Shown here in pieces: positions 6,298 through 55,800 of a stretch of DNA of 64,000 bases. Below the pieces are notes generated by a model that was not told where the DNA came from, ran no database searches, and saw nothing but the letters and a program-made list of their open reading frames with translations. Each line of letters begins with the position of its first letter. The stretch's first letter is position 1. A program made the position numbers and the translations under genes. The stretch lies in NCBI GenBank assembly GCA_029210175.1, contig JARGPL010000039.1:1-64000 (forward strand), written 5' to 3'. The stretch comes from Minwuia sp. (GTDB lineage: Bacteria; Pseudomonadota; Alphaproteobacteria; Minwuiales; Minwuiaceae).

Positions 6298-7808
6298 GCC
6301 ACAAGAAGCCCTGATTTATTGTCGCGTGTCGGGTAAAAAACAGACGAAGGATGGATCGGGCCTCGACAGTCAGGAATATCGCTGCCGCCAGTATGCGGAA
6401 GCCAAAGGATATTCCGTGGAGGCGGTTTTTCCCGATGACGTATCGGGCGGTGGAGACTTCATGAACCGCCCCGGCATGGTCGCTCTGCTCGCCTATATGG
6501 ATGCGCGCGCAGGAGAACGCTTCGTCGTTATTTTTGACGATCTGAAACGCTACGCCCGTGATGTGGAATTCCACCTTAAGCTACGCCGCGAGATGTTGGC
6601 GCGCGGGGCAATCCGCGAATGTCTGAACTTCAATTTCGAAGACACGCCTGAAGGCAAATTCAACGAGATTATCTCCGCCGCCGCTGGAGAACTGGAACGC
6701 CTGCAGATGGGGCGGCAAAACAAACAAAAAGCGATGGCACGGGTCGAACAAGGCTACGCCGTGCGTTCAGTGCCGCCTGTTGGCTTGAAATACGTCCCGG
6801 CTAAAGGCGGAGGTAAGGTGTTGGTTCACGATGAGCCAGTCGCCTCGATCATCCGCGAAGCGCTCGAAGGCTTTGCCTCTGGGCGCTTCCAGTCCCAGTC
6901 CGAAGTGAAACGCTTTCTCGAATCCCAGTCCGACTTTCCCAAAGACCTGTCTGATGGTTCGATCCGGCAACAGAAGGTGAAACGTTTGCTCACCCAAATC
7001 TATTATGCGGGATATATCGCGATGCCAAGCTGGGGCATTTCTATCCGCGATGCCAAACACGAAGGCATCGTCAGCAAAGAAACCTTTCACCGCATTCAAG
7101 AGCGCCTCAAGGAACGCCCCGTTATGCCCGCCCGCAAGGATATGAGCGTGGATTTCCCGTTGCGTGGCGCTGTCACTTGCGCCTCATGCGGTTATTCGCT
7201 CACCGGAGGGTGGAGCAAGGGAAAAAACCAGAGATATGCCTATTATTTCTGCCACCACAAAGGGTGCCCAGAACGAGGAAAAACGATTCCGGTCGCAAAG
7301 TTCCATGACTTGTTCGAAGAGCTCCTACGCTCATTGCAGCCCTCGCGCCCGTATTTCGAACTGGTAAAGGCGATGTTCATCAAAGCTTGGGATGCTCAAA
7401 CCAAACGTTTAGACGAAACTGTGGAGGCCTATGCAGTAAAAGCCCGCGCACTCGAAACGGAAATTGGTAAGGTTGTGGATCGTATGATTGAAGTGACCAA
7501 CCCGCGTGCTTTAAAGGCGTTTGAAGATCGCATCGAAGCGCTGGAACGCGAAAAACTCACCGCCATCGAAAATGCGTCAAAAAAACCTGCCTCTGCGCAT
7601 TCGTTCGAGGAAATGTTTGAACACGCAATGCAGTTCCTCGCAAACCCTTATGAATGCTGGAAAATTGGGGGTCAGACAGCACAAAAGTTGGTGTTGAGAT
7701 TGGCCTTCTGTGAGCCCATCACCTATGCCCGAGATACGGGCTGTTTGAACACCAAAAAGTCTAATGTTTTTAGACTTTTAGAGGGTAATAACATGTCGAG
7801 AAGAAAGA

Positions 7809-39745: not shown

Positions 39746-40177
39746 TTATCCACCGGCCTGTTGCGGCATGAAGGCAATGGCAAGCGAGATCGCGATACTC
39801 AACACGATCAGGGTCATGTAGAGCGGAAAGACAGACCATCCGGTCATGGTATCGGAAACCGTGTGCGCAGCGCGAACGTCCTCGCCGGGTGTCATGACGA
39901 AATCCGCCGCCCCGGTGTTCTGGCGTGCCGTGTCGTACATCGCCCGAAACCATCTTTCCTGGGCCAGGTATCTGGCATCCAGCGCCCAGAACAGGAGCGC
40001 CAGCACCGCACCCGCAGGTGCCAGCACGTATGTGTCGGTCGCGGCGGCCGTGGAGGCCGTTGCCGCGATGGAGGCGAGCGCGAACTGTTTCATCCGTGCG
40101 CTCTCGCCCGCCATGCGGCCGATCGTTGCCTGGATCATCGCCAGATGCGCGACCTTCTGTTGGGAGAATTCAGTCAT
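39746..40177 (-). CDS. Small membrane protein paired with the LRR-GTPase-TIR protein
   Basis: This 143-residue protein has a soluble N-terminal helix (MTEFSQQKVAHLAMIQATIGRM, abridged). Two adjacent hydrophobic segments span about residues 31-67. A conserved-looking motif ALDARYLAQERWFRAMYD follows, then a loop and a C-terminal transmembrane segment (about 117-138). The pattern W-x-L-D-x-x-Y-L-x-Q-E-R-x-F-R resembles small membrane proteins I associate with TIR or other defence genes, from memory. Its ATG overlaps the TIR gene stop by eight bases, so the two are co-translated. It could anchor the sensor or act as a pore-forming effector. The function is unproven. Confidence 0.7.
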   Translation of the reverse strand: MTEFSQQKVAHLAMIQATIGRMAGESARMKQFALASIAATASTAAATDTYVLAPAGAVLALLFWALDARYLAQERWFRAMYDTARQNTGAADFVMTPGEDVRAAHTVSDTMTGWSVFPLYMTLIVLSIAISLAIAFMPQQAGG

Positions 40178-42965
40178 CGGTCAATCCGTTTGCCAGCAGG
40201 TCTTCCAGGCTGCGTGAATGAACATGGTCCGCGAGGACACCCAGAATATCATCCGTGTCATGGGCAAATTTCCTCACCCTGTGATAATCGCGGGTCTGTC
40301 GCTCGGACAGGTTCGCCAGTCCACGTCCCTCGAAGCGTTGCAACATGTCGATCCAGTGATCCTGCCATTCGAACCACCGGCTCGAATCATCCAGCGGAAT
40401 GTCTTCCCCCTTGTGGAGCCTGACTTTCTTCATGAACGCTGCATCATCTTCGGCGCGCTGCCAGATCTGGTGCAGTTCGTACATGCAGAAGGGGGATTTC
40501 AGGTAGGCCTCGCTGAGGAAGATGAAAATCCGGTCACCCGTTGCCAGCATGTTCATGAATTTGGAGATGCTGTCGCCGTGATTGAGTTGTTCGGTATCGC
40601 GCAGGATGGCGCGGTCCTGTTGGCACGCCGCATCGCAAAACCGGTCGATAGGCGTGCCTCTGGCGGGTGTATTGTCGCTGTTGGCGTAGGAAACGTACCA
40701 CTGCTGTCCGGCCTTGCGCTCCCGTTCGTAGACCAGCGCGGGCGGTGTCGAGGTTTCGTCGCGGGGGCGGTCCCTGGGTTCTGTCCTGCCGTCCTCAACG
40801 CGTTCGGATGACAGGCCGAGGTTCTGTTCCTGCTGCCGGACCATGTCGGAAAGGGCATCGAGCAATTCCCGCGCCCGTCCCCGTTGGGTCCTGATGGTGA
40901 TGGTGCCTGCCCATTGTCCGGTCATGTGCTGCTGGATCAGGGCGCGGCTCCGGCGTTCGCGTTCGAAGACATAGACGCCACTCCGCCAGTATTCGCCGGA
41001 CAGTCCGGCAGTCTGGCCGATATGGGCGATGATGCCGCGCATGAGGGCGGGCGTCAGCAGATCGTAGCTGAATGTGGCGGTCTGCGTTTCCGCGTCTGCC
41101 TCCCATTCCTGTCCGGCGTCGCGGGGCTGTGATTCCGGCAGCAGGTCCGGGGCGATGTACTGGGCCTCGATATCCCGGGCGGCATCCCCGCTGCGGTGTT
41201 TGAAACAGATTCCGCAGGACTGCATCATGCTCAGGAACAGTTCCTGTTCCTCCGGCGTATGCTCGGCGTCCCATATCAGCCCGCCGAGCATGGACCGGTC
41301 AAACCGGCCCTGGTTGCTGGTGATCGGACGCACGCATTTCTGGCGATTGAAGACGGCATAGATGGCGTCGAGCGCCCAGGACTGATCCACAATCAGCTGA
41401 TTGCCGAACAGGCCCTGGCGATAGAACACGGTGCCCGCGTTGTGCAGGAAGTCGAGGAAGGCAGCCGTGTCGGAGATATTGCCTGCATCCTCACACATCT
41501 TCTCGAACGCGGCGTAGGTGATGGTCTGATCTTGCCGGTCCCCCGGCGCGCGTCGCATATCCGCGTCGCGCAGGGCCTCGATCCGGTTCTTGACGGTCAG
41601 CCTTCCCTTGCCGATCAGGGGATTGGGCAAATGATTGCAGCAATCGGCGAGCGCATCGTAGAGCGTGGCGCGGTTGCGGTCGGTTTTCGCGGAATAGCAG
41701 ATCGTGGATTTGACCGCGAAGGGATCCAGGCGCCGGTAGGCGTCTTGCGGGATCAGGGCATCCTGTGCCGGGGTGTCGCACTGGCTCTGGATGACGACAA
41801 CGGGGCTGTCTGTTCCGCCGAAGCGGGCGGCGTAATCGAGCCAGTAGGGCAAGGGATAATTGCGGAAGACCATGTCCTCGTGGGTGTGGGTTTCCTCTAC
41901 CTCCATCCGGGGTGTCCAGACAATCGCGAAGACAGCGCGGGTCCTGAGGAACAGGGCATGGGTGCCATGATAGATATCCTGGCCACCAAAGTCCCAGATA
42001 TGCAGGCGTCCCCCGGCACTGTCATCAGCGGACCCGGGGGCATCCATGGCGTTGACGGTGATGCCGTGGGTGGAGGAGATGCTCTCGTCGAATTCCCTGC
42101 CCAGCAACCGTTCGCAGATCTGTGTCTTGCCGATACGGCCATTGCCGAGCACCATCAGCTTGGCATCACCGAGGTGTTCGGCCCCGTCCCGGATATCGCG
42201 CAGATGCGCCCGCATACGCCCGAGGCAGTTGTCATCCCATGACTTAGAGAGGACTTCTGCAGGCACATCGGGAAATGTTGCACCCAGGGAATTGACAGTT
42301 TGCAGCGTCTGCTTGTCCCAAAGCGCCCCTGGCACAGTGACGATATTGCATCCACCACAGTTGATCGACTGGAGGCTCTGGAGGTTGTGCAACGGGGTGA
42401 GGTCGCTCACCTGGTTGTCGGGGCAGTTGATCGACTGGAGGCTCTGGAGGTTCTGCAACGGGGTGAGGTCGCTCACCTGGGTGGCAGAGCAGGTGATCGA
42501 CTGGAGGCTCTGGAGGTCCTGCAACGGGGTGAGGTCGCTCACCTGGGAGCGGGAGCAGTAGATCGACTGGAGGCTCTGGAGGTTCTGCAACGGGGTAAGG
42601 TCGCTCACCTGGGTGTCGGAGCAGTCGATCGACTGGAGGCTCTGGAGGTTGTGCAACGGGGTGAGGTCGCTCACCTGGGTGGCATAGCAGTAGATCGACT
42701 GGAGGCTCTGGAGGTCCTGCAACGGGGTGAGGTCGGTCACCTGGGTATAGGAGCAGTTGATCGACTGTAGGCTTTTGATGTTCTGCAGCGGTCCGAGGTC
42801 GCTCACCTGGGTGCCATAGCAGTCGATCGACTGGAGGTTCTGGAGGTTCTTGATGCTGGCTGGCAGGTCAGCAAGCGCGAAAATTCGGAGGTCGAGGGTT
42901 TGCCCCTCCTGCCATTGAGCGATCCGTCTTTCCGCTTCTCGCATGGCCTCGTCAGCGTCGATCAT
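40170..42965 (-). CDS. LRR - Roc GTPase - COR - TIR multidomain protein (candidate immune sensor)
   Basis: This 931-residue protein has four regions. Leucine-rich repeats fill residues about 34-235: eight near-identical 22-residue units of the form LTPL-x-NLQSLQSI-x-C-x-x-TQVSD plus degenerate caps. A Roc-type GTPase occupies about 267-450 with P-loop GNGRIGKT (274-281), switch motif DFGGQ (325-329) and a divergent base motif QSQCD. A COR-like region spans about 455-740. A C-terminal TIR domain starts about 753 (YVSYANSDN) with the candidate NAD-cleaving Glu in SPFCMYELHQIW near 830. Roco proteins and TIR domains are both known in bacterial immunity, but this combination is rare in my experience. 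It heads a two-gene operon beside tRNA-Ser. Confidence 0.9.
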   Translation of the reverse strand: MIDADEAMREAERRIAQWQEGQTLDLRIFALADLPASIKNLQNLQSIDCYGTQVSDLGPLQNIKSLQSINCSYTQVTDLTPLQDLQSLQSIYCYATQVSDLTPLHNLQSLQSIDCSDTQVSDLTPLQNLQSLQSIYCSRSQVSDLTPLQDLQSLQSITCSATQVSDLTPLQNLQSLQSINCPDNQVSDLTPLHNLQSLQSINCGGCNIVTVPGALWDKQTLQTVNSLGATFPDVPAEVLSKSWDDNCLGRMRAHLRDIRDGAEHLGDAKLMVLGNGRIGKTQICERLLGREFDESISSTHGITVNAMDAPGSADDSAGGRLHIWDFGGQDIYHGTHALFLRTRAVFAIVWTPRMEVEETHTHEDMVFRNYPLPYWLDYAARFGGTDSPVVVIQSQCDTPAQDALIPQDAYRRLDPFAVKSTICYSAKTDRNRATLYDALADCCNHLPNPLIGKGRLTVKNRIEALRDADMRRAPGDRQDQTITYAAFEKMCEDAGNISDTAAFLDFLHNAGTVFYRQGLFGNQLIVDQSWALDAIYAVFNRQKCVRPITSNQGRFDRSMLGGLIWDAEHTPEEQELFLSMMQSCGICFKHRSGDAARDIEAQYIAPDLLPESQPRDAGQEWEADAETQTATFSYDLLTPALMRGIIAHIGQTAGLSGEYWRSGVYVFERERRSRALIQQHMTGQWAGTITIRTQRGRARELLDALSDMVRQQEQNLGLSSERVEDGRTEPRDRPRDETSTPPALVYERERKAGQQWYVSYANSDNTPARGTPIDRFCDAACQQDRAILRDTEQLNHGDSISKFMNMLATGDRIFIFLSEAYLKSPFCMYELHQIWQRAEDDAAFMKKVRLHKGEDIPLDDSSRWFEWQDHWIDMLQRFEGRGLANLSERQTRDYHRVRKFAHDTDDILGVLADHVHSRSLEDLLANGLTDD
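42363..42890. repeat. 66-bp tandem DNA repeat encoding the LRR array
   Basis: The motif GATCGACTGGAGG recurs with an exact period of 66 bases at 42363, 42429, 42495, 42561, 42627, 42693, 42759 (one base different) and 42825. Intervening sequence is nearly identical at DNA level apart from codons for the variable LRR positions. This suggests recent expansion and an easily changed copy number. Confidence 0.93.
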
Positions 42966-47448: not shown

Positions 47449-48723
47449 CTATCCCTTCAGCCAGTTCACGATGGTGCCGAAATTGTCCAGGTCGCGTTGC
47501 GCGCGGTCGTCTGTGCTGTTGCGGAGAAAGCCGGACAGCCGCAGCCGCAGCCGCCACCATTTCAGCGGATAATAGAGGAAGACCCGGGGGGACCGCGCAT
47601 CCACCGGAAACTCCCGCGCGATGCGTGCACGGGACGGGAAGGCGCGGCCCAGCAGGCGACCGATCTTGCCCCCGACCGTCGGGGTATCAGCCAGTTCCGC
47701 CTGCAACGCCACGTCGCCCCGTGCCTCGACACTGCGCAAGAGGCTGTGTGCGGCGACAGGGAGGATCGGGTCGTCTGCGCGAATGATCGCCGCCGCCGCG
47801 TCATCCCATGCAATCTGCTGGCCGGGCCATTCCCGCTCCAGCAGGCGCAGGGCCAGCGCAACGCCCCGGGTGGCCTGCTGTTGTCGTGCCAGGTCCCAGA
47901 ATGTCGGCCAGTCGATCTGATGATGGTCCAGAATCCAGGCGATGTCCGTGAGGGTCAGAGGGCCATTGTTGAACTGGTTGTCCAGCACGGCATGGACGCA
48001 GATATGCAGCAACAGGTCTTCCGGGCCGGAAAAGCTGATGTCCTGACCAGCGACGGTGCGTCGGACGGCACGCTGCCCCAGCACCTCGTGGCGTCCCAGG
48101 GCCGGATCGTAGGGCATCAGCGCGCTGGGCGTGGTCGTCAGCGTATGCACCTCCACCGACGCCCCGCCCGGCACCCGGATGGTCGGCAGGTGCTTCGATC
48201 CGGCCAGGTAGACCTCCGGGTTGCCCATGTGCTTCGGGTTGCGTTCCAGCCCGTTGGCCAGAAGCGCGTTGAAGGCCGCCATTGCCTGATCGCGCCTGAC
48301 CAGCACATCCAGATCCCGCATGGGGCGAAGACCGGATTCGGGATAGGCGAAATGGGCGAGGTAGGCACCCTTCAGAAACAGGTGCCCGATGCCGGCGTCG
48401 TCCAGCACGCGGCTGACATGGATCATGTCACGCTGCATCGACAGGGCGCGCAGGGTTGATCTGCGGTAGGCAGCCGCCAGAGTGCGCTGGACTTCTGCCG
48501 GCAGCGTATCGCGCAGTCCCGCCCGTCCGATGCTGTAGTGCAGATAGGGCATGAACCGGTGCTCGGCCGCCCACGCCAGGATCTGTGACCAGTCGTCACC
48601 CGTCAGCGCGCCGATGTCCGACCCCTGCATCTGGTCGGGCCGACAGATCAGCGCCAGGGTCATGTCCTCCCGTGCGACCGCACCGGACATCGGATCAACC
48701 AGTGAATACCCGGGTTCAGTCAT
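47449..48723 (-). CDS. Nucleotidyltransferase-fold protein of the lasso-peptide cluster
   Basis: This 424-residue protein belongs to the NTP_transf_5 type (minimal nucleotidyltransferase fold). It shows FLKGAYLAHFAYPESGLRPM then RDLDVLVRR with the metal-binding Asp pair near residue 140, and LLLHICVHAVLDNQ near 225. Relatives occur in lasso-peptide clusters. One, the pseudomycoidin enzyme, is reported to modify the peptide C-terminus (from memory). It is transcribed away from the precursor gene. The 18 bases at its start match those of the cyclase gene exactly. Confidence 0.8.
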   Translation of the reverse strand: MTEPGYSLVDPMSGAVAREDMTLALICRPDQMQGSDIGALTGDDWSQILAWAAEHRFMPYLHYSIGRAGLRDTLPAEVQRTLAAAYRRSTLRALSMQRDMIHVSRVLDDAGIGHLFLKGAYLAHFAYPESGLRPMRDLDVLVRRDQAMAAFNALLANGLERNPKHMGNPEVYLAGSKHLPTIRVPGGASVEVHTLTTTPSALMPYDPALGRHEVLGQRAVRRTVAGQDISFSGPEDLLLHICVHAVLDNQFNNGPLTLTDIAWILDHHQIDWPTFWDLARQQQATRGVALALRLLEREWPGQQIAWDDAAAAIIRADDPILPVAAHSLLRSVEARGDVALQAELADTPTVGGKIGRLLGRAFPSRARIAREFPVDARSPRVFLYYPLKWWRLRLRLSGFLRNSTDDRAQRDLDNFGTIVNWLKG

Positions 48724-49074: not shown

Positions 49075-49224
49075 ATGACACAGCGTACCATCTCCGAAGA
49101 CAACGCCTCCACCATCGAAGGCGACGAGAAGAAGGTTTACGAGAGCCCCGTTCTGAACGTGCTTGGCTCCGAAGAAACCGCGAACCTTACCGCTGCAAAT
49201 TCGGATGCCACGACGGTTAGCTGA
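49075..49224 (+). CDS. Lasso peptide precursor (A)
   Basis: This 49-residue peptide has a leader with the RRE-recognition pattern Y22-x-x-P25-x-L27-x-x-L30-G31 (YESPVLNVLG) and Thr35 at the place of the conserved penultimate leader Thr. If cleavage follows Ala36, the core is the 13 residues NLTAANSDATTVS, with an eight-residue ring Asn1-Asp8. If cleavage follows Thr35, the core starts with Ala and a nine-residue Ala1-Asp9 ring is possible. Asp44 is the only acidic residue in the core. The peptide ends in Ser, matching kinase-bearing lasso clusters. It is alone on its strand, followed by a terminator. Confidence 0.8.
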   Translation: MTQRTISEDNASTIEGDEKKVYESPVLNVLGSEETANLTAANSDATTVS

Positions 49225-49452: not shown

Positions 49453-51177
49453 TCAATCTACGCTCGTCTGTGACGGTGCCACGCTTTCCAAGCATCCGGA
49501 TTTGAGAACGACGATCTGATCAGCATGTTGCCTGGTAGCAGCTCGGTGGCCGATATGAACGATGGCCATTTGTCCGTGCAATTGTTGCAGGGCAGTGACA
49601 ACAGCCTGTTCGTTGGCTTCGTCCAGGGAACTTGTGGCTTCATCCAGGATCAGCAGGCTGGGCTTGCGCAACAGCGCCCGCGCGATGGCAAGCCGCTGAC
49701 GTTCGCCGCCGGAAAGCCGCACACCATTGTCCCCGACCATGGTCTCGAGACCGTCCGGCAGGGCGAAGACGAAGTGGGCTGATGCCATTTCGAGTGCGGC
49801 AACCAGATCAGTCTCGGATGCGTCTGGATTGCCGACCAACAGATTGGCGCGCACCGTGTCATTGAACAGGAACACGTCCTGCGGGACGTAAGCCACCGCG
49901 CGCCGCCATCGGTGCTGCGATGCCTCGTCCAGCGCCGTTCCATCGATCTCGACAGTCCCCTCATCCGGCGTCATCAACCCCATCAGAACGTCCGCCAGGG
50001 TGCTCTTGCCAGACCCGGACGGGCCCGTGATCGCCGTCGTGGTCCTGGCTGGCAGTGAAAGGCTCAAGTCCTGCAATGCCGGTTCCGCACGACCGGTAAA
50101 GGTCAGGGTCACGTTCCTCAGGGTGATGGCTTCGTTCAACTGCCAGCCGGGCGGCTCGCTTTCGGGCACAGGCTCCGCATGCGCGGCACTTTCGGCAATG
50201 AATCGGTCGACAGCCGCCAGCGCGGGTTCCGCATTGAGCCAGCGATGCAGGAACTGCTGAGCAGAAAGCAGCAGAGGCATCAACCGTGCGAACAGGAACG
50301 TCAGCGCGAGCAGTTCAGCCAGTGACAGTGCTAGCCATTCCAGGCCCGCGTAAACGCATAGCGCCAACATCGCCGCGCCAATGGCCTGTTGCAGGCTGCG
50401 GGTCAGGCTGGTGTCGATGCCGAACTTTAGTTGCGTGCGGCGTACCTGGCCGACGGTCCTGACCAGCAATTCGATATGGTGGCGCTCGCTGCCCAGGATC
50501 TTGGTCAGTTTCAATCCGGTGAAGGCCTGCTGCACGTTGGCCATCAGGGCCTGGTTGGCCTTGACCTGCTCCGTACCCAGCCGGGATGCGCTGCGCCGGA
50601 TGCGATGCATGGCGACATAGCCGATTGCGGCGGCAAGGGCGATCAATGCCGCCATCCCGGGGGAGAAGACGAGTGCTACGGCGAAATAGGCAATGGCGGT
50701 TGCAAGGGTTGTCAACAGGGTCAGGCCGGCATTCAATCCCGCGCCGATGCGCTGCACCTCCCCCAACACGAGGTTCATGTGGTCTGTTCGGGTCTGCGCC
50801 GTGATCCAGCGCCAGTCCGCGCGCATCAACTGGCTGATGCAGTTCTCCCGCAAGCCGTCGACAACCCGGAATTGCAGGGTCAGGCTGGTCCGATCCTTGG
50901 CGAACTGGATGACACTGCGCAGCGCGACCAGGGCGACGAAGACCAGCAGGAATCCTGCCAGCGTCGCGGATATGTTCAGCGTATCGAGCAGATCGAGCAG
51001 ATGCTGGACAATGGTGTTGCTGTTGTCGCCACCCATCAGCGATGACAGCAGCGGCACCAGCAGGATGATGCCTATCCCCTCCGTCATGCTGCCTAGCAAT
51101 AGCAGGATGACGAGGGCAAGCAGATGGGGACGAGGTGCGCGCCGTAGCAGGGAATACAGGCTGTTCACGCTGGTCAC
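49453..51177 (-). CDS. Lasso peptide ABC exporter
   Basis: This 574-residue half-transporter fuses six transmembrane segments (residues about 15-310) with a nucleotide-binding domain. The Walker A is GPSGSGKSTLADVLMG near 382, the Q-loop lies in YVPQDVFLFNDTV, and the signature LSGGERQRLAIARALL near 485 precedes LLILDEATSSLDE. It likely exports the mature peptide and gives self-protection. Its ATG overlaps the B2 stop as ATGA, so ABC, B2 and B1 form one minus-strand operon. Confidence 0.93.
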   Translation of the reverse strand: MTSVNSLYSLLRRAPRPHLLALVILLLLGSMTEGIGIILLVPLLSSLMGGDNSNTIVQHLLDLLDTLNISATLAGFLLVFVALVALRSVIQFAKDRTSLTLQFRVVDGLRENCISQLMRADWRWITAQTRTDHMNLVLGEVQRIGAGLNAGLTLLTTLATAIAYFAVALVFSPGMAALIALAAAIGYVAMHRIRRSASRLGTEQVKANQALMANVQQAFTGLKLTKILGSERHHIELLVRTVGQVRRTQLKFGIDTSLTRSLQQAIGAAMLALCVYAGLEWLALSLAELLALTFLFARLMPLLLSAQQFLHRWLNAEPALAAVDRFIAESAAHAEPVPESEPPGWQLNEAITLRNVTLTFTGRAEPALQDLSLSLPARTTTAITGPSGSGKSTLADVLMGLMTPDEGTVEIDGTALDEASQHRWRRAVAYVPQDVFLFNDTVRANLLVGNPDASETDLVAALEMASAHFVFALPDGLETMVGDNGVRLSGGERQRLAIARALLRKPSLLILDEATSSLDEANEQAVVTALQQLHGQMAIVHIGHRAATRQHADQIVVLKSGCLESVAPSQTSVD

Positions 51178-51674
51178 GCCTTGCCCTCCGGCGCGAGACC
51201 GCGGCCGACAAACATGCGGACCACATGATAGTGCGCGAAAGCCTGACCGCCGGTGACGGAAATCGGTCCGGACATGACCCAGGCATGGGCGCTGAGGTCA
51301 CGGGCACCCTTCGCGCGCTCCAACCCGAAATAGATCGCGTGAGGTACCCGATAGAAGCGCAGCAATGTGCGCGCCGCCAATGCCTGTGGATAGCAGTTGG
51401 CATCCCATGGGCAGTACCTCACGGCAAGCGCGATGGTTCGGCGGATCTGTCGGGCGCGTGATGTCTGCCTGTCACCAGTCAGAGGCACCCAGGCGCTGGC
51501 CCCCACGTCCTGTCCATAGAACGGGGCCATTCGCTTCAGGGGGACGGACAGGATCAGCGCCCGATACAGACCGAGCAGCAGCCAGACCGGAAACAGCCAG
51601 ATGATGGTGAATGCAGGCTGGCGGCCGAGGTTGCGACATTTTCGGGCAATTGTTTGGGCCAGCGACATCTGCAT
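51174..51674 (-). CDS. Lasso peptide B2 protein (leader protease)
   Basis: This 166-residue transglutaminase-like cysteine protease cuts the leader from the precursor. The catalytic Cys is in RYCPWDANCYPQALAARTLL near residue 95 and the catalytic His in LSAHAWVMSG near 135. The Asp is not clearly assignable. A hydrophobic N-terminal segment (AFTIIWLFPVWLLLGLYRAL) may associate it with the membrane. The start is uncertain between two ATGs six bases apart. It lies seven bases after the RRE gene. Confidence 0.88.
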   Translation of the reverse strand: MQMSLAQTIARKCRNLGRQPAFTIIWLFPVWLLLGLYRALILSVPLKRMAPFYGQDVGASAWVPLTGDRQTSRARQIRRTIALAVRYCPWDANCYPQALAARTLLRFYRVPHAIYFGLERAKGARDLSAHAWVMSGPISVTGGQAFAHYHVVRMFVGRGLAPEGKA

Positions 51675-51681
51675 GACATTG

Positions 51682-51948
51682 CTAATCTGCCACCAGCCGA
51701 TTCTTGACCAGGTCGGCCAGGAAAGCCTGCACGTCCTTCCGGCAATCCTGCTCCGATACCTCGAACTCGGCGCGGACCAGTGACACCAGTTCATCTTCGG
51801 TCCGCGGCTGTTCCAGCTTATCCCAGATCAGGGCGGCGACACCGCCGACACCGAAATACGAACCATGCTCGATGCTCATCAGCACGGTCTCGCCATCCAT
51901 GTCGGTCGAGACGAAATCGGGCAGGCGACAATAGGTCGTTGAAGACAT
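51682..51948 (-). CDS. Lasso peptide B1 protein (PqqD-like RRE)
   Basis: This 88-residue PqqD-type RiPP recognition element binds the leader and presents it to B2 and the cyclase. The family pattern is LPDFVSTDMDGETVLMSIEHGSYFGVGGVAALIWDKLEQ (abridged; residues about 10-48), followed by the helix pair DELVSLVRAEFEVSEQDC and VQAFLADLVKNRLV. An ATG 15 bases upstream is also possible. It leads the minus-strand B1-B2-ABC operon. Confidence 0.9.
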   Translation of the reverse strand: MSSTTYCRLPDFVSTDMDGETVLMSIEHGSYFGVGGVAALIWDKLEQPRTEDELVSLVRAEFEVSEQDCRKDVQAFLADLVKNRLVAD

Positions 51949-52136
51949 GTACTCTGGTTCCATCCCTTGGTATGCGGCCTTAATAGGGCATAATCCGACG
52001 TGTTGGCAAAAGGAGTTTCCCAGTCGGTTTCGGGAGGCATGCCTTGCATCACACCCGGTTCGCAGAACGGTTCCCCCCTGACGATCTTTGCTTTAGTAGT
52101 TTTGGCAGAGATCAGGACACCATCGACGGATAAATC

Positions 52137-53039
52137 ATGCCCCGCTTCTGCAAGGCCTATGGTCTCACCATAGAGTCAGACATTGCCCTGCCAGAACTGC
52201 TCGCAGCCGCTCACGAAGGTGGACCTGCGGACATCACGATTTCTCGTGGCCCTGTTCGTGTGCCAGCTGTTGGGCAAGTGAAGCAGATTTCGCCCTTTAT
52301 CTGGGTTGGTGAAGATGCCTTCTGGCTTCATGTGCCAGGTGTCGCCCGTTTTTCAGTGGTCGGTGCGTCAAAGATTACCATCGATCCTGAGCCTGGCGTG
52401 GACGAGGCGTCCATCCGCGTGTTCCTGCTGGGGTCGGTTCTGGGTGCGGTTCTGTTCCAGCGCGGTTTCCTGCTGTTGCATGGCAACGCGGTCGAAGTTG
52501 ACGGCGGGTGCGTGATCTGCATCGGGCCATCCGGAGTGGGGAAATCCACGCTTGCGGCCGGTTTCCTGCAGCGCGGATACCGGATGCTTGCCGATGACGT
52601 GGTGCCGATAGATGCTGACTGTGCTGCCGTTCCGGGCTTTCCCCGGCTCAAGATCTGGCAGGATGCAGCCGAGAAGATGGCCATAAATACAACGGCGCAA
52701 ACGCGCGTGCGGCCGGACATGAACAAGTTCAACCTGATGACTCGGGACAATTTCAGCGATGCACGCTTGCCCGTGCGCTGGATCTATATTCTCAGCAGCG
52801 AGAACCGGGATGGATTCGAGGTTCAGCCGATCCATGGCATGCATCGCTTTGCGCCGCTGCGCGAGAACACTTACCGACGCCGTTTGATGGAAGGCATGGC
52901 CCTGCAGCCGGAGCATCTGAAACGCTGCGGTGAGCTGGCATCGAAGGTGCGTCTGACCAGGCTGGTTCGGCCAAAGACCGGTTTCGATATCGATGGGTTG
53001 GTCGACACGATCCTGGCAGACATCAGGACCGCGGGTTGA
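52137..53039 (+). CDS. HprK-like kinase of the lasso cluster
   Basis: This 300-residue protein has a C-terminal half like HPr kinase: P-loop IGPSGVGKSTLAAGFLQRGY near residues 127-145, DDVVPIDADCAAVPGFPRLK, and a late GMALQPEHLKRCGELAS stretch. The N-terminal half is the divergent domain common to lasso kinases. In the paeninodin type such enzymes phosphorylate the side chain of the C-terminal Ser of the precursor (from memory), and the precursor here ends in Ser. It is divergent from B1 and is followed by the sulfotransferase after one base. Confidence 0.88.
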   Translation: MPRFCKAYGLTIESDIALPELLAAAHEGGPADITISRGPVRVPAVGQVKQISPFIWVGEDAFWLHVPGVARFSVVGASKITIDPEPGVDEASIRVFLLGSVLGAVLFQRGFLLLHGNAVEVDGGCVICIGPSGVGKSTLAAGFLQRGYRMLADDVVPIDADCAAVPGFPRLKIWQDAAEKMAINTTAQTRVRPDMNKFNLMTRDNFSDARLPVRWIYILSSENRDGFEVQPIHGMHRFAPLRENTYRRRLMEGMALQPEHLKRCGELASKVRLTRLVRPKTGFDIDGLVDTILADIRTAG

Positions 53040-53040
53040 A

Positions 53041-53895
53041 ATGGGTGGCATCTACTGGCTGGCATCCTATCCGAAGTCCGGGAACACATGGTTCCGGACC
53101 TTCCTGCAGAACCTGATGAGCGTTGCCGACACGCCGACTGATATCAACAAGCTGAACACGGGTAGTATCGCGTCCAGCAGGAACTGGATCGATGATGTGA
53201 TCGGTTTCGACACGTCCGACCTGCGCCAGGACGAGATCGAGAGCCTCCGTCCCCATGTCTATCGCTGGATGTGCCGTGGCGACGGCGTCGCCTATCACAA
53301 GATTCATGATGCCTACACCCATACGGGTGAAGGACGGCCGCTGGTTGATGATATTGCCACGCTTGGAGCGCTCTACATCATCCGCAACCCGCTGGATGTT
53401 GCGCCATCCTATGCCGGTCACCGCAATTGCAGCATTGATGATGCGATAGGCTCCATGGGCGATCCGAGACACGCGCTGGCACGATCGCAGAAGGCGCTGC
53501 CTGATCAGTTGCTGCAGTTCGTGGGGACCTGGTCACAACACGTCATCAGTTGGGTGGATGCGGAACGGTTGAACGTGAAGGTCATCCGCTACGAGGACAT
53601 GCATGCGACGCCAGATCGAACGTTCGGGTCCGCCGCAGACTTTCTGGGCCTCGACACGGATACCGAGCGACGCAGGCGTGCAATCGACTTCAGCAGTTTC
53701 GATATCGTTGCGGGGCAGGAGGCTCGTTCGGGGTTTCGGGAGCGGCCGCCGCAGGCGGAGCGGTTCTTCCGCAAAGGGGTTGCCGGTGACTGGCGCGAGT
53801 CTTTGACCGATGCCCAGGTCACACGGATCATCGCGGACCATGGGATCGTGATGTCCCGTTTCGGTTATCTGGATGCGGCGATGCAACCCGTCTGA
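53041..53895 (+). CDS. Sulfotransferase of the lasso cluster
   Basis: This 284-residue PAPS-dependent sulfotransferase has the 5'-phosphosulfate loop YPKSGNTW at residues 10-17 and the 3'-phosphate motif YIIRNPLDVAPSYAGH near 115-130. The late motif VIRYEDMHATPDRTF and the C-terminal FFRKGVAGDWRESLT are typical of cytosolic-type sulfotransferases. The start one base after the kinase stop shows coupling and favours a role in the same modification step. Sulfation of a lasso peptide is inference and would be unusual. Confidence 0.9.
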   Translation: MGGIYWLASYPKSGNTWFRTFLQNLMSVADTPTDINKLNTGSIASSRNWIDDVIGFDTSDLRQDEIESLRPHVYRWMCRGDGVAYHKIHDAYTHTGEGRPLVDDIATLGALYIIRNPLDVAPSYAGHRNCSIDDAIGSMGDPRHALARSQKALPDQLLQFVGTWSQHVISWVDAERLNVKVIRYEDMHATPDRTFGSAADFLGLDTDTERRRRAIDFSSFDIVAGQEARSGFRERPPQAERFFRKGVAGDWRESLTDAQVTRIIADHGIVMSRFGYLDAAMQPV

Positions 53896-53901
53896 ACCCT
53901 G

Positions 53902-55800
53902 TCAGAAGTCATTGCGTCCACTGATGTAGCGCACGAAGCGGGCAGTCGTCAGCCCGCGGCTGAGCGCCAGTTTCAGTGTCTGAGTCTGCTCATGAGTGAT
54001 GCTTGAACCGTCTGTCGGCATGTCCTCTACCGCTCGCCTCAAACGGTCGAAGTCCAGATATCCCTTGACCAATGGATCAGACGAAAGCCATTCGATTTCG
54101 GCAAGGAGTTCTTGGCGTTGTGGCAACATCCGCGCTGTCCAGTCTGCCGCCTGTAGTCCACGTCGCTTCTCGTTGCGGACCATTTCCGGCACCTTGCCGA
54201 CCAGCATGCGTTTCGCAAGCCAACGTTTCCGACCCCTGTTGAGGTATTGTTCCGGCGGGATCGCGAGACAGAATTCGAGCAACGGTCGGTAGCGTGTGGG
54301 GTCGCGGTTTGGAAGACCGTGCAGCCGTTGCAGGGCGTAAAGCAGATCTCCTGTTTCATTTCCGGCATCCACCAGAGTGGCGTGGCGAAAATCAAGTACC
54401 GAGGATGGAGGCATGAAGGCTCGGTCCTGGCCCATCTCGAACGCGCGTTCCGCCACATCATGATCGCGGGCAAACTCTGGGTGAATCGGTGACCAGGTCG
54501 GCAGGTCCGTGCTCCACAGACTGCCGAACCGCCTTCTCAAGGCCTGCCGTGTCGATACTGGCAAGAACGGCAACACGGCTTCGCGTGCGGTGCGGTCGAA
54601 CAGCTTCCGTCGCGGCCCACCGTGCCAGAGTTCCAGTGCTGCGCGCACCCACTGGCCGTTGCGGATCATGTCCTGCAAGAAGCCGTTGCCTGCATAGCTG
54701 AAAGTTGCATTCCCCATGACTCCGGTCAACAGCACATCGGCGTTCGCGCCCTTGGCTCCCCGCTGAACGTTATGTATCCATTTGAGGTTTGTCGGGTTTC
54801 GCGGCGATATGAGGGATGCTTCGAAGATATCTCCCTGATCGTCGGTGAAATTTTCCCCGGTGGATTCCACCCAGTGCGGCCGCAACTGCGGATACATGGC
54901 CGCCAATGCCTCGACGTGGGGTCGCTCATCGACCAGTGTGGACGAATCTCCTGGCGTCCAGTTCGGGTCCGGTACGGACGTGAATGACAGCAGCGGTTGA
55001 TCCGGCCGGACCTGCATCGTGTAGGCGGCGACAGCCTGGGAATCCAGTCCGCCTGACAGGCTGATGGCGGGGCGCTCAAAGCCGTCGAGTGCCATGGTCA
55101 CGGCCTCACGGAACAGGGCGTCTGCGGCCTCCACATAGTCGCTGTCACGCTTGAAGCGGACGGGCGGGATGTTTTCTATATCGAAAAAGCGGGTTTCCTT
55201 GACGCCATCCGGTGTGGCCCAGACACGGGTGCCGCGCGGCAGGCGCGCGACGCCCTTGAACCAGCCGCGACGTTCCTCGCGATAATTGAGATACAGCGTA
55301 TCGGCGATCTTCTGTTCGTCCAGCACCCGTTCGATCTCGCCGCTGGCGAAGATTGCCTGTGCATGGCCGGTCACGATCAGCCGGTCGGCGTCGCGCCAGA
55401 AATACAATGCGGGTGACCTGATCGGGCTGCGCGCCATGCGGACGCGCTTGCCATTGGCTTCCACCATGATCACGGCATATTCGCCCAGCAATCGCTGGTC
55501 GGCATCCTCCCCCCACCGGGCCCAGGCAGCGGCATAAAGCGCAGCATCCCCTTCGTCTGGCACACCCAGTTCCGCCCGCATCGCGTGGCGGTTCTCGATG
55601 AAGCCATAGAGCAGCACCGCCGAGCCGTCCGGGGCGCGGGCAGGCAGTTCCGTCGGCGCGGCATAGCCGTCACAGAGCAGTGCCCCGTTCAGAAGGTGCG
55701 CCCTTGCCGACGAGAAACCGGTCCGAAGGGCAGAAGCGAATGCAACTGACCGGGACAGGGCCGCATCCGGGTCATGCCAGAGGACGTAAACGCCAATCAT
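53902..55800 (-). CDS. Lasso peptide cyclase (asparagine synthetase-like C protein)
   Basis: This 632-residue ATP-dependent lasso cyclase closes the isopeptide bond by adenylating the Asp side chain. The N-terminal glutaminase-like domain lacks the catalytic Cys2 (it starts MIGVYVLWH), as in lasso cyclases. The synthetase domain has the PP-loop SLSGGLDSQAVAAYT near 247 and GDIFEASL, LTGVMGNATFSY and RKRWLAKRMLVGKVPEMVR motifs. It converges with the sulfotransferase gene (six-base gap). The 18-bp start motif matches the nucleotidyltransferase gene. Confidence 0.92.
   Translation of the reverse strand: MIGVYVLWHDPDAALSRSVAFASALRTGFSSARAHLLNGALLCDGYAAPTELPARAPDGSAVLLYGFIENRHAMRAELGVPDEGDAALYAAAWARWGEDADQRLLGEYAVIMVEANGKRVRMARSPIRSPALYFWRDADRLIVTGHAQAIFASGEIERVLDEQKIADTLYLNYREERRGWFKGVARLPRGTRVWATPDGVKETRFFDIENIPPVRFKRDSDYVEAADALFREAVTMALDGFERPAISLSGGLDSQAVAAYTMQVRPDQPLLSFTSVPDPNWTPGDSSTLVDERPHVEALAAMYPQLRPHWVESTGENFTDDQGDIFEASLISPRNPTNLKWIHNVQRGAKGANADVLLTGVMGNATFSYAGNGFLQDMIRNGQWVRAALELWHGGPRRKLFDRTAREAVLPFLPVSTRQALRRRFGSLWSTDLPTWSPIHPEFARDHDVAERAFEMGQDRAFMPPSSVLDFRHATLVDAGNETGDLLYALQRLHGLPNRDPTRYRPLLEFCLAIPPEQYLNRGRKRWLAKRMLVGKVPEMVRNEKRRGLQAADWTARMLPQRQELLAEIEWLSSDPLVKGYLDFDRLRRAVEDMPTDGSSITHEQTQTLKLALSRGLTTARFVRYISGRNDF

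Follow-up and report, generated by a model that had tools for sequence, protein, structure and literature searches.

Lasso peptide clusters that encode a kinase, among them that of paeninodin, are the closest described relatives of the locus reported here. These clusters combine a split B1/B2 pair, an ABC exporter and an HPr-like kinase, and their precursors have a C-terminal Ser and a Thr near the cut (PMC8498205). In linear precursors the lasso kinase modifies the C-terminal Ser (PMC8498205), but Ser3 is the residue phosphorylated by the related BsfK (PMC10368454). Some lasso clusters were already noted in 2014 to include an HPr kinase and a sulfotransferase (PMC4289311), and lasso clusters with sulfotransferases and nucleotidyltransferases are described from Firmicutes (PMC8498205). 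A Thr at the penultimate leader position is a published rule, and the role of Tyr, Pro and Leu in the leader motif is taken from the same source (PMC10368454). Published cores span 13 to 33 residues (PMC13352647); huascopeptin has 13 (PMC12427821) and was called the shortest lasso peptide in a 2020 review (PMC7549694). Rings of seven to nine residues make up the published range (PMC8498205, PMC7549694), a ten-residue ring being described only for an engineered in-vitro analogue (PMC8498205). The thread is commonly held in place, according to the same source, by bulky plug residues.

In the window, i.e. the whole 64,000-nucleotide stretch of Minwuia sp. DNA that was analysed, domain models identify a corresponding set of genes:

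47449..48723, minus strand: NTP_transf_5 nucleotidyltransferase (PF14907, 167.4 bits)
49075..49224, plus strand: lasso precursor gene (A), 49 aa, reading MTQRTISEDNASTIEGDEKKVYESPVLNVLGSEETANLTAANSDATTVS (ORF list, homologues, codon pattern)
49453..51177, minus strand: ABC exporter (D; PF00005, PF00664)
51174..51794, minus strand: B2 leader peptidase (NF033537, 67.1 bits, cut-off 33)
51682..51963, minus strand: B1, PqqD-like leader-binding protein (PF05402, 71.2 bits, cut-off 23.4)
52137..53039, plus strand: HPr-kinase-like protein (PF07475, 38.9 bits, cut-off 33.3, P-loop region)
53041..53895, plus strand: sulfotransferase (PF00685, 73 bits; conserved KSGxTW motif)
53902..55800, minus strand: asparagine-synthetase-like lasso cyclase (C; PF00733, E 3.8e-18)

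The HPr-kinase-like protein has the conserved P-loop GxSGxGKSTLA, and the sulfotransferase gene starts one base past the kinase stop codon. B2 is the only one in the genome, and its Cys134 and His170 are invariant in all 14 aligned sequences. For the cyclase and B1, lasso models are the best or near-best NCBIfam matches, both under the curated cut-offs (NF033535 as top match of the cyclase, 152 bits against 525; NF033536 for B1, 76.9 bits against 80). The cyclase aligns with those of eight related clusters and has no N-terminal Cys after Met. Four partial-length matches elsewhere in the genome (26-27% identity) were considered as a second lasso cyclase and taken as ordinary asparagine-synthetase relatives, and among plasmids every match to the cyclase stayed below 60% identity, the best rows at 22-28%. 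About 110 bases of the B2 frame overlap B1, owing to an extended N-terminus that is missing or different in two related clusters (L044, L050); judged from these, translation of B2 probably starts at an internal Met at about 51668. Elsewhere in the window, a 931-aa ORF (40170-42965, minus strand) combines leucine-rich-type repeats with a P-loop-like GNGRIGKTQ stretch and, at its C-terminal side, a TIR-like part (YVSYANSD); by eye it resembles a ROCO/TIR-type protein.

Cyclase, B2, B1, a YxxPxL leader with (given the predicted cut) a penultimate Thr, and an acidic residue within core positions 7-9 mark the locus as a lasso cluster, and the HPr-kinase-like gene together with the C-terminal Ser of the precursor places it in the kinase-containing, paeninodin-like class. 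Compared with paeninodin, the locus has its genes in another order, encodes a different core sequence and includes in addition a sulfotransferase and a nucleotidyltransferase; a 13-residue core starting with Asn is predicted here, where paeninodin has Ala. The paeninodin-like precursor of Bacillus cereus KPR-7A has the same Trp-to-Thr spacing, its core being given with Gly first (PMC7533575, Table 3 for the spacing). Pseudomycoidin (PMC8498205) shares the C-terminal Ser and the combination of kinase and nucleotidyltransferase, but it is a Bacillus peptide without Asn1, and the sugar chemistry shown there can only be presumed here. Huascopeptin matches in length, yet comes from Streptomyces and has a Gly1-Asp7 ring (PMC12427821, PMC7549694). 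The Bradymonas bsf cluster (PMC10368454) is likewise a Proteobacterial-type kinase cluster with B1, B2 and an N gene; it differs by Ile at -2, Tyr(-17) spacing, a Gly1-Asp8 ring and phosphorylation on Ser3.

The precursor itself shows the following elements:

49138..49155, plus strand: YxxPxL leader motif YESPVL, residues 22-27, predicted B1 recognition site (sequence)
49177..49182, plus strand: Thr35-Ala36, predicted leader positions -2 and -1 (Thr35 invariant, 8/8 in precursor alignment A5)
49183..49221, plus strand: predicted core NLTAANSDATTVS (register common to related clusters)
49183..49185, plus strand: Asn37, predicted core residue 1 (kept in 4/4 genus precursors)
49204..49206, plus strand: Asp44, predicted ring acceptor, core residue 8 (invariant, 8/8 in A5)
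49219..49221, plus strand: Ser49, C-terminal, likely kinase target (4/4 genus precursors; by analogy with paeninodin kinases, PMC8498205)

Pro25 and Leu27 of the leader motif are also invariant in A5. The ORF at 49075-49224 had been proposed as a lasso precursor from the DNA of this stretch, and re-reading of the sequence, the lasso cluster, the homologues and the codon pattern confirm that it is a real gene within a complete lasso peptide cluster. The pattern searched for, a short ORF with [YW]xxPx[LIVMAF], Thr at the penultimate leader site and Asp/Glu at core position 8 or 9, occurs once in the 64 kb. Taken alone this is weak evidence, because 60 block-shuffled windows also yield matches (mean 0.37, maximum 3). 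The ORF nevertheless goes beyond chance, since it lies within the lasso cluster, has homologues in three other genomes of the genus and shows the codon pattern given below against the closest species (G385). Pfam and NCBIfam models, including precursor families, gave no match to the precursor at the limits used. A competing precursor gene as the real substrate, named in the original prediction as a finding that would overturn it, was sought genome-wide with a profile of eight precursors: the profile finds this gene with E 5.6e-22 and no second precursor, the next matches (E 0.69 and 1.87) lying inside longer frames of 383 and 193 codons.

The precursor is present in four of seven genomes of the genus, that of the window (G000) included, with identities to it of 72, 52 and 42%. 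One relative (G082) carries B1, B2, D, A, the nucleotidyltransferase, kinase and sulfotransferase genes and part of C on a single 15-kb stretch, and another (G387) has all cluster genes, split over two contigs. G385 is represented by a short contig that ends inside B2 and shows only the nucleotidyltransferase gene, A, D and part of B2; the HPr-kinase-like gene is seen in two of these three relatives. The four predicted cores are NLTAANSDATTVS, NQPVAGTDGVTSAS, NGGPGASPDGVTSS and NDIAPSNDGATTSS. All four precursors share Thr-Ala-Asn, an Asp seven or eight residues past the Asn, and a C-terminal Ser, and within the cores only this Asn, this Asp and the terminal Ser are kept throughout. Between the two closest species, G000 and G385, 14 of codons 19-36 are identical, four are synonymous and none is changed, whereas from codon 37 to the end two are identical, three synonymous and eight changed, with one gap. 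A conserved leader and a variable core are what is expected of RiPP precursors of this kind.

Where the core begins can be judged from ring size and spacing. Cleavage after Ala36 would give the 13-residue core NLTAANSDATTVS with Asp8 as its sole acidic residue, and with Asn as residue 1 the rings of the four species would comprise 8, 8, 9 and 8 residues. Counted from the Tyr of YxxPxL, Thr lies at +13, residue 1 at +15 and the ring acid at +22/+23, a spacing that recurs in many kinase-containing clusters. The four genus precursors and this recurrence support cleavage after Ala36, an Asn1-Asp8 ring and a five-residue tail, in agreement with the original prediction. That prediction also offered a cut after Thr35, giving a 14-residue core with an Ala1-Asp9 ring, and this we regard as very unlikely: Ala often stands first in lasso cores and Ala36 is kept in 4/4 genus precursors, but the rings would then have 9, 9, 10 and 9 residues against a natural published range of 7-9, Thr would stand at -1, and the acid would lie at +23/+24 from the Tyr, out of register with the relatives. 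The tail had been put at four or five residues; under either cut it is ATTVS, hence five and never four.

Several observations count against the preferred reading. Precursor family models do not match, the cyclase and B1 score under their NCBIfam cut-offs, the tail lacks a bulky plug, and Asn stands first in none of the lasso papers found. The predicted Tyr(-15) differs from the canonical Tyr(-17) (PMC10368454), and the boundary between conserved and variable codons falls after Asn37, not before it, which would fit Asn37 as the final residue of the leader. Under the canonical spacing itself the core would begin at Thr39 and have a six-residue ring (seven in G387), outside the published range; this register was rejected. 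A cut after Asn37, with core LTAANSDATTVS, a Leu1-Asp7 ring and Thr35 at -3, is unlikely in our estimation. The conserved block between G000 and G385 does end with Asn37, and a one-residue shift in three relatives (L092, L124, L090) would produce Gly1-Asp7; yet residue 1 would become Leu, Gln, Gly and Asp across the four species, and under the Thr(-2) register Gly is frequent at core position 2 of relatives, as in SG or AG starts. The paeninodin core begins Ala1-Gly2. Rings of 7, 7, 8 and 7 residues would result from residue 38 as the start, and a seven-residue ring is known from huascopeptin (PMC12427821), but Thr at -3 runs contrary to the penultimate rule (PMC10368454). Of the three starts, Asn37 as residue 1 is the only one in keeping with the published penultimate Thr (PMC10368454), and the cut after Ala36 is the best supported.

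A survey of kinase-containing clusters was used to place this register in a wider context. It drew on 19 stretches around 20-odd B2 matches from a search of the class (20 of 385 genomes matched) and on 80 sulfotransferase loci, those that rank best among 568 confirmed matches. Confined to loci that hold a kinase plus one or more further lasso genes, the pattern search returned 131 candidates, of which 52 scored at least 3; the window and the G385 contig are outside this count. The 79 candidates scoring below 3 were dropped, some of them true precursors in other registers (e.g. L052, L075, L144), and the counts for the 52 include at least two entries of spurious appearance (R1 in L082, D1 in L087). 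Residue 1 falls at +15 from the Tyr/Trp in 32 precursors, at +16 in 11 and at +17 in nine. Thr stands at -2 in 44 of the 52, and because the selecting score used Thr at -2 as well as the acid at 8 or 9, the survey is no independent proof of the cut. It does support the spacing and the variety of residue 1 across these pattern-selected sequences. Several loci (L106, L087, L091, L144) carry three or four different precursors in tandem, with first residues G/L/I/A in L106 and S/S/S/T in L087, and two class relatives (L053, L063) have two precursors each.

Residue 1 among the 52 precursors is Ser in 12, Gly in 11, Ala in 10 and Asn in four, followed by Ile, Lys, Thr, Phe and Val (two each) and by Gln, Arg, Asp, His and Leu (one each). 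Asn had been called atypical at this position, and with 4/52 against 33/52 for Ser, Gly or Ala in this pattern-selected set the description holds. Asn1 is predicted in the four genus precursors, in a member of another family of the same class (L055) and in a Burkholderiales MAG (L123, with Thr-Ala-Asn). In a tree built from 42 cyclases, at least three changes are needed to account for the Asn1 label, a number that is also forced by the well-supported branches; labels were assigned by hand from the precursors, six rows are unlabelled, and no cyclase frame was obtained for two of the 43 labelled loci (L073, L144). Clustering of the label is no stronger than in 52 of 500 shuffles, and Asn1 is therefore better described as a recurrence than as a clade. 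In L073 (Roseibaca ekhonensis) the precursor at 6664-6825 has a register with Gln or Asn first, TM preceding QNAPGVKSD. The literature searched, mostly outside subscription papers, yielded no statement on a lasso peptide with Asn at position 1; matches for lasso peptide and 'Asn1' concern amanitin analogues and graspetides only.

The original prediction also stressed how short the core is. As huascopeptin also has 13 residues, the predicted core is at the known minimum and not below it, and its exceptional character is weakened by the eight of 52 survey precursors with predicted 13-residue cores, by huascopeptin and by the recurrence of Asn1. The locus is predicted to encode a member of the paeninodin-like class whose first residue is uncommon and whose core is as short as any known. 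Neither ATTVS nor the tails of the three genus relatives contain a bulky plug residue, and because the tail is so short and free of bulk, threading may be unstable. The same features could speak for enzymes that make a branched-cyclic unthreaded or a linear modified peptide in place of a threaded lasso. We hold this to be very unlikely, as all lasso enzymes are present and conserved, and other clusters encode cores whose tails are just as short (L113: GSTGPISDGITTS, AGGPGITDAGFLS).

As a whole, we consider it likely that the gene encodes a short precursor of the kinase-containing, paeninodin-like type that is bound by B1, cut after Ala36, closed to an Asn1-Asp8 ring, threaded and modified. B1 would bind the YESPVL motif and B2 would cut after Ala36; the cyclase would activate Asp8 and link it to the Asn1 amino group, closing an eight-residue ring through which the five-residue tail would be threaded, and the ABC protein would export the peptide. 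Prior to folding, the HPr-like kinase probably phosphorylates the C-terminal Ser, and nucleotidyltransferase and sulfotransferase probably add further groups, on the phosphate or on Ser/Thr. That the terminal Ser suits the kinase, as suggested earlier, is plausible (38 of the 52 survey precursors end in Ser) but not certain, because BsfK phosphorylates Ser3; the core offers Ser7, Ser13 and three Thr as possible sites. In L063 the two precursors end in Pro and Val despite the presence of a kinase, and so the target there cannot be a C-terminal Ser.

A kinase match is present in 65 of the 80 sulfotransferase loci (best 80 of 568), mostly about 900 bases upstream of the sulfotransferase and in many phyla; among the 19 class stretches, ten have a sulfotransferase and 12 a kinase. 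Given this wide occurrence, the kinase-sulfotransferase pair is a common module; the original prediction for this ORF made no reference to the sulfotransferase. Novelty of the sulfotransferase was considered and rejected, as such genes were reported in 2014 (PMC4289311) and in Firmicutes (PMC8498205) and are common in the surveyed loci. That the genus makes very short, Asn-first lasso peptides with small Ser/Thr/Val/Ala/Gly tails, in which added phosphate, sulfate or sugar serve as thread stoppers, is an unlikely reading.

Judging by the survey, lasso clusters with a kinase and a sulfotransferase are common in many phyla, and the range of their first core residues goes beyond Gly, Ala, Ser and Cys. 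If the predicted peptide is confirmed, Asn would join the residues accepted by a lasso cyclase at ring position 1, and the product would be a second lasso peptide at the known 13-residue minimum. Bulk-free tails encoded beside a kinase, a sulfotransferase and a nucleotidyltransferase would offer a direct test case for added groups locking the thread.
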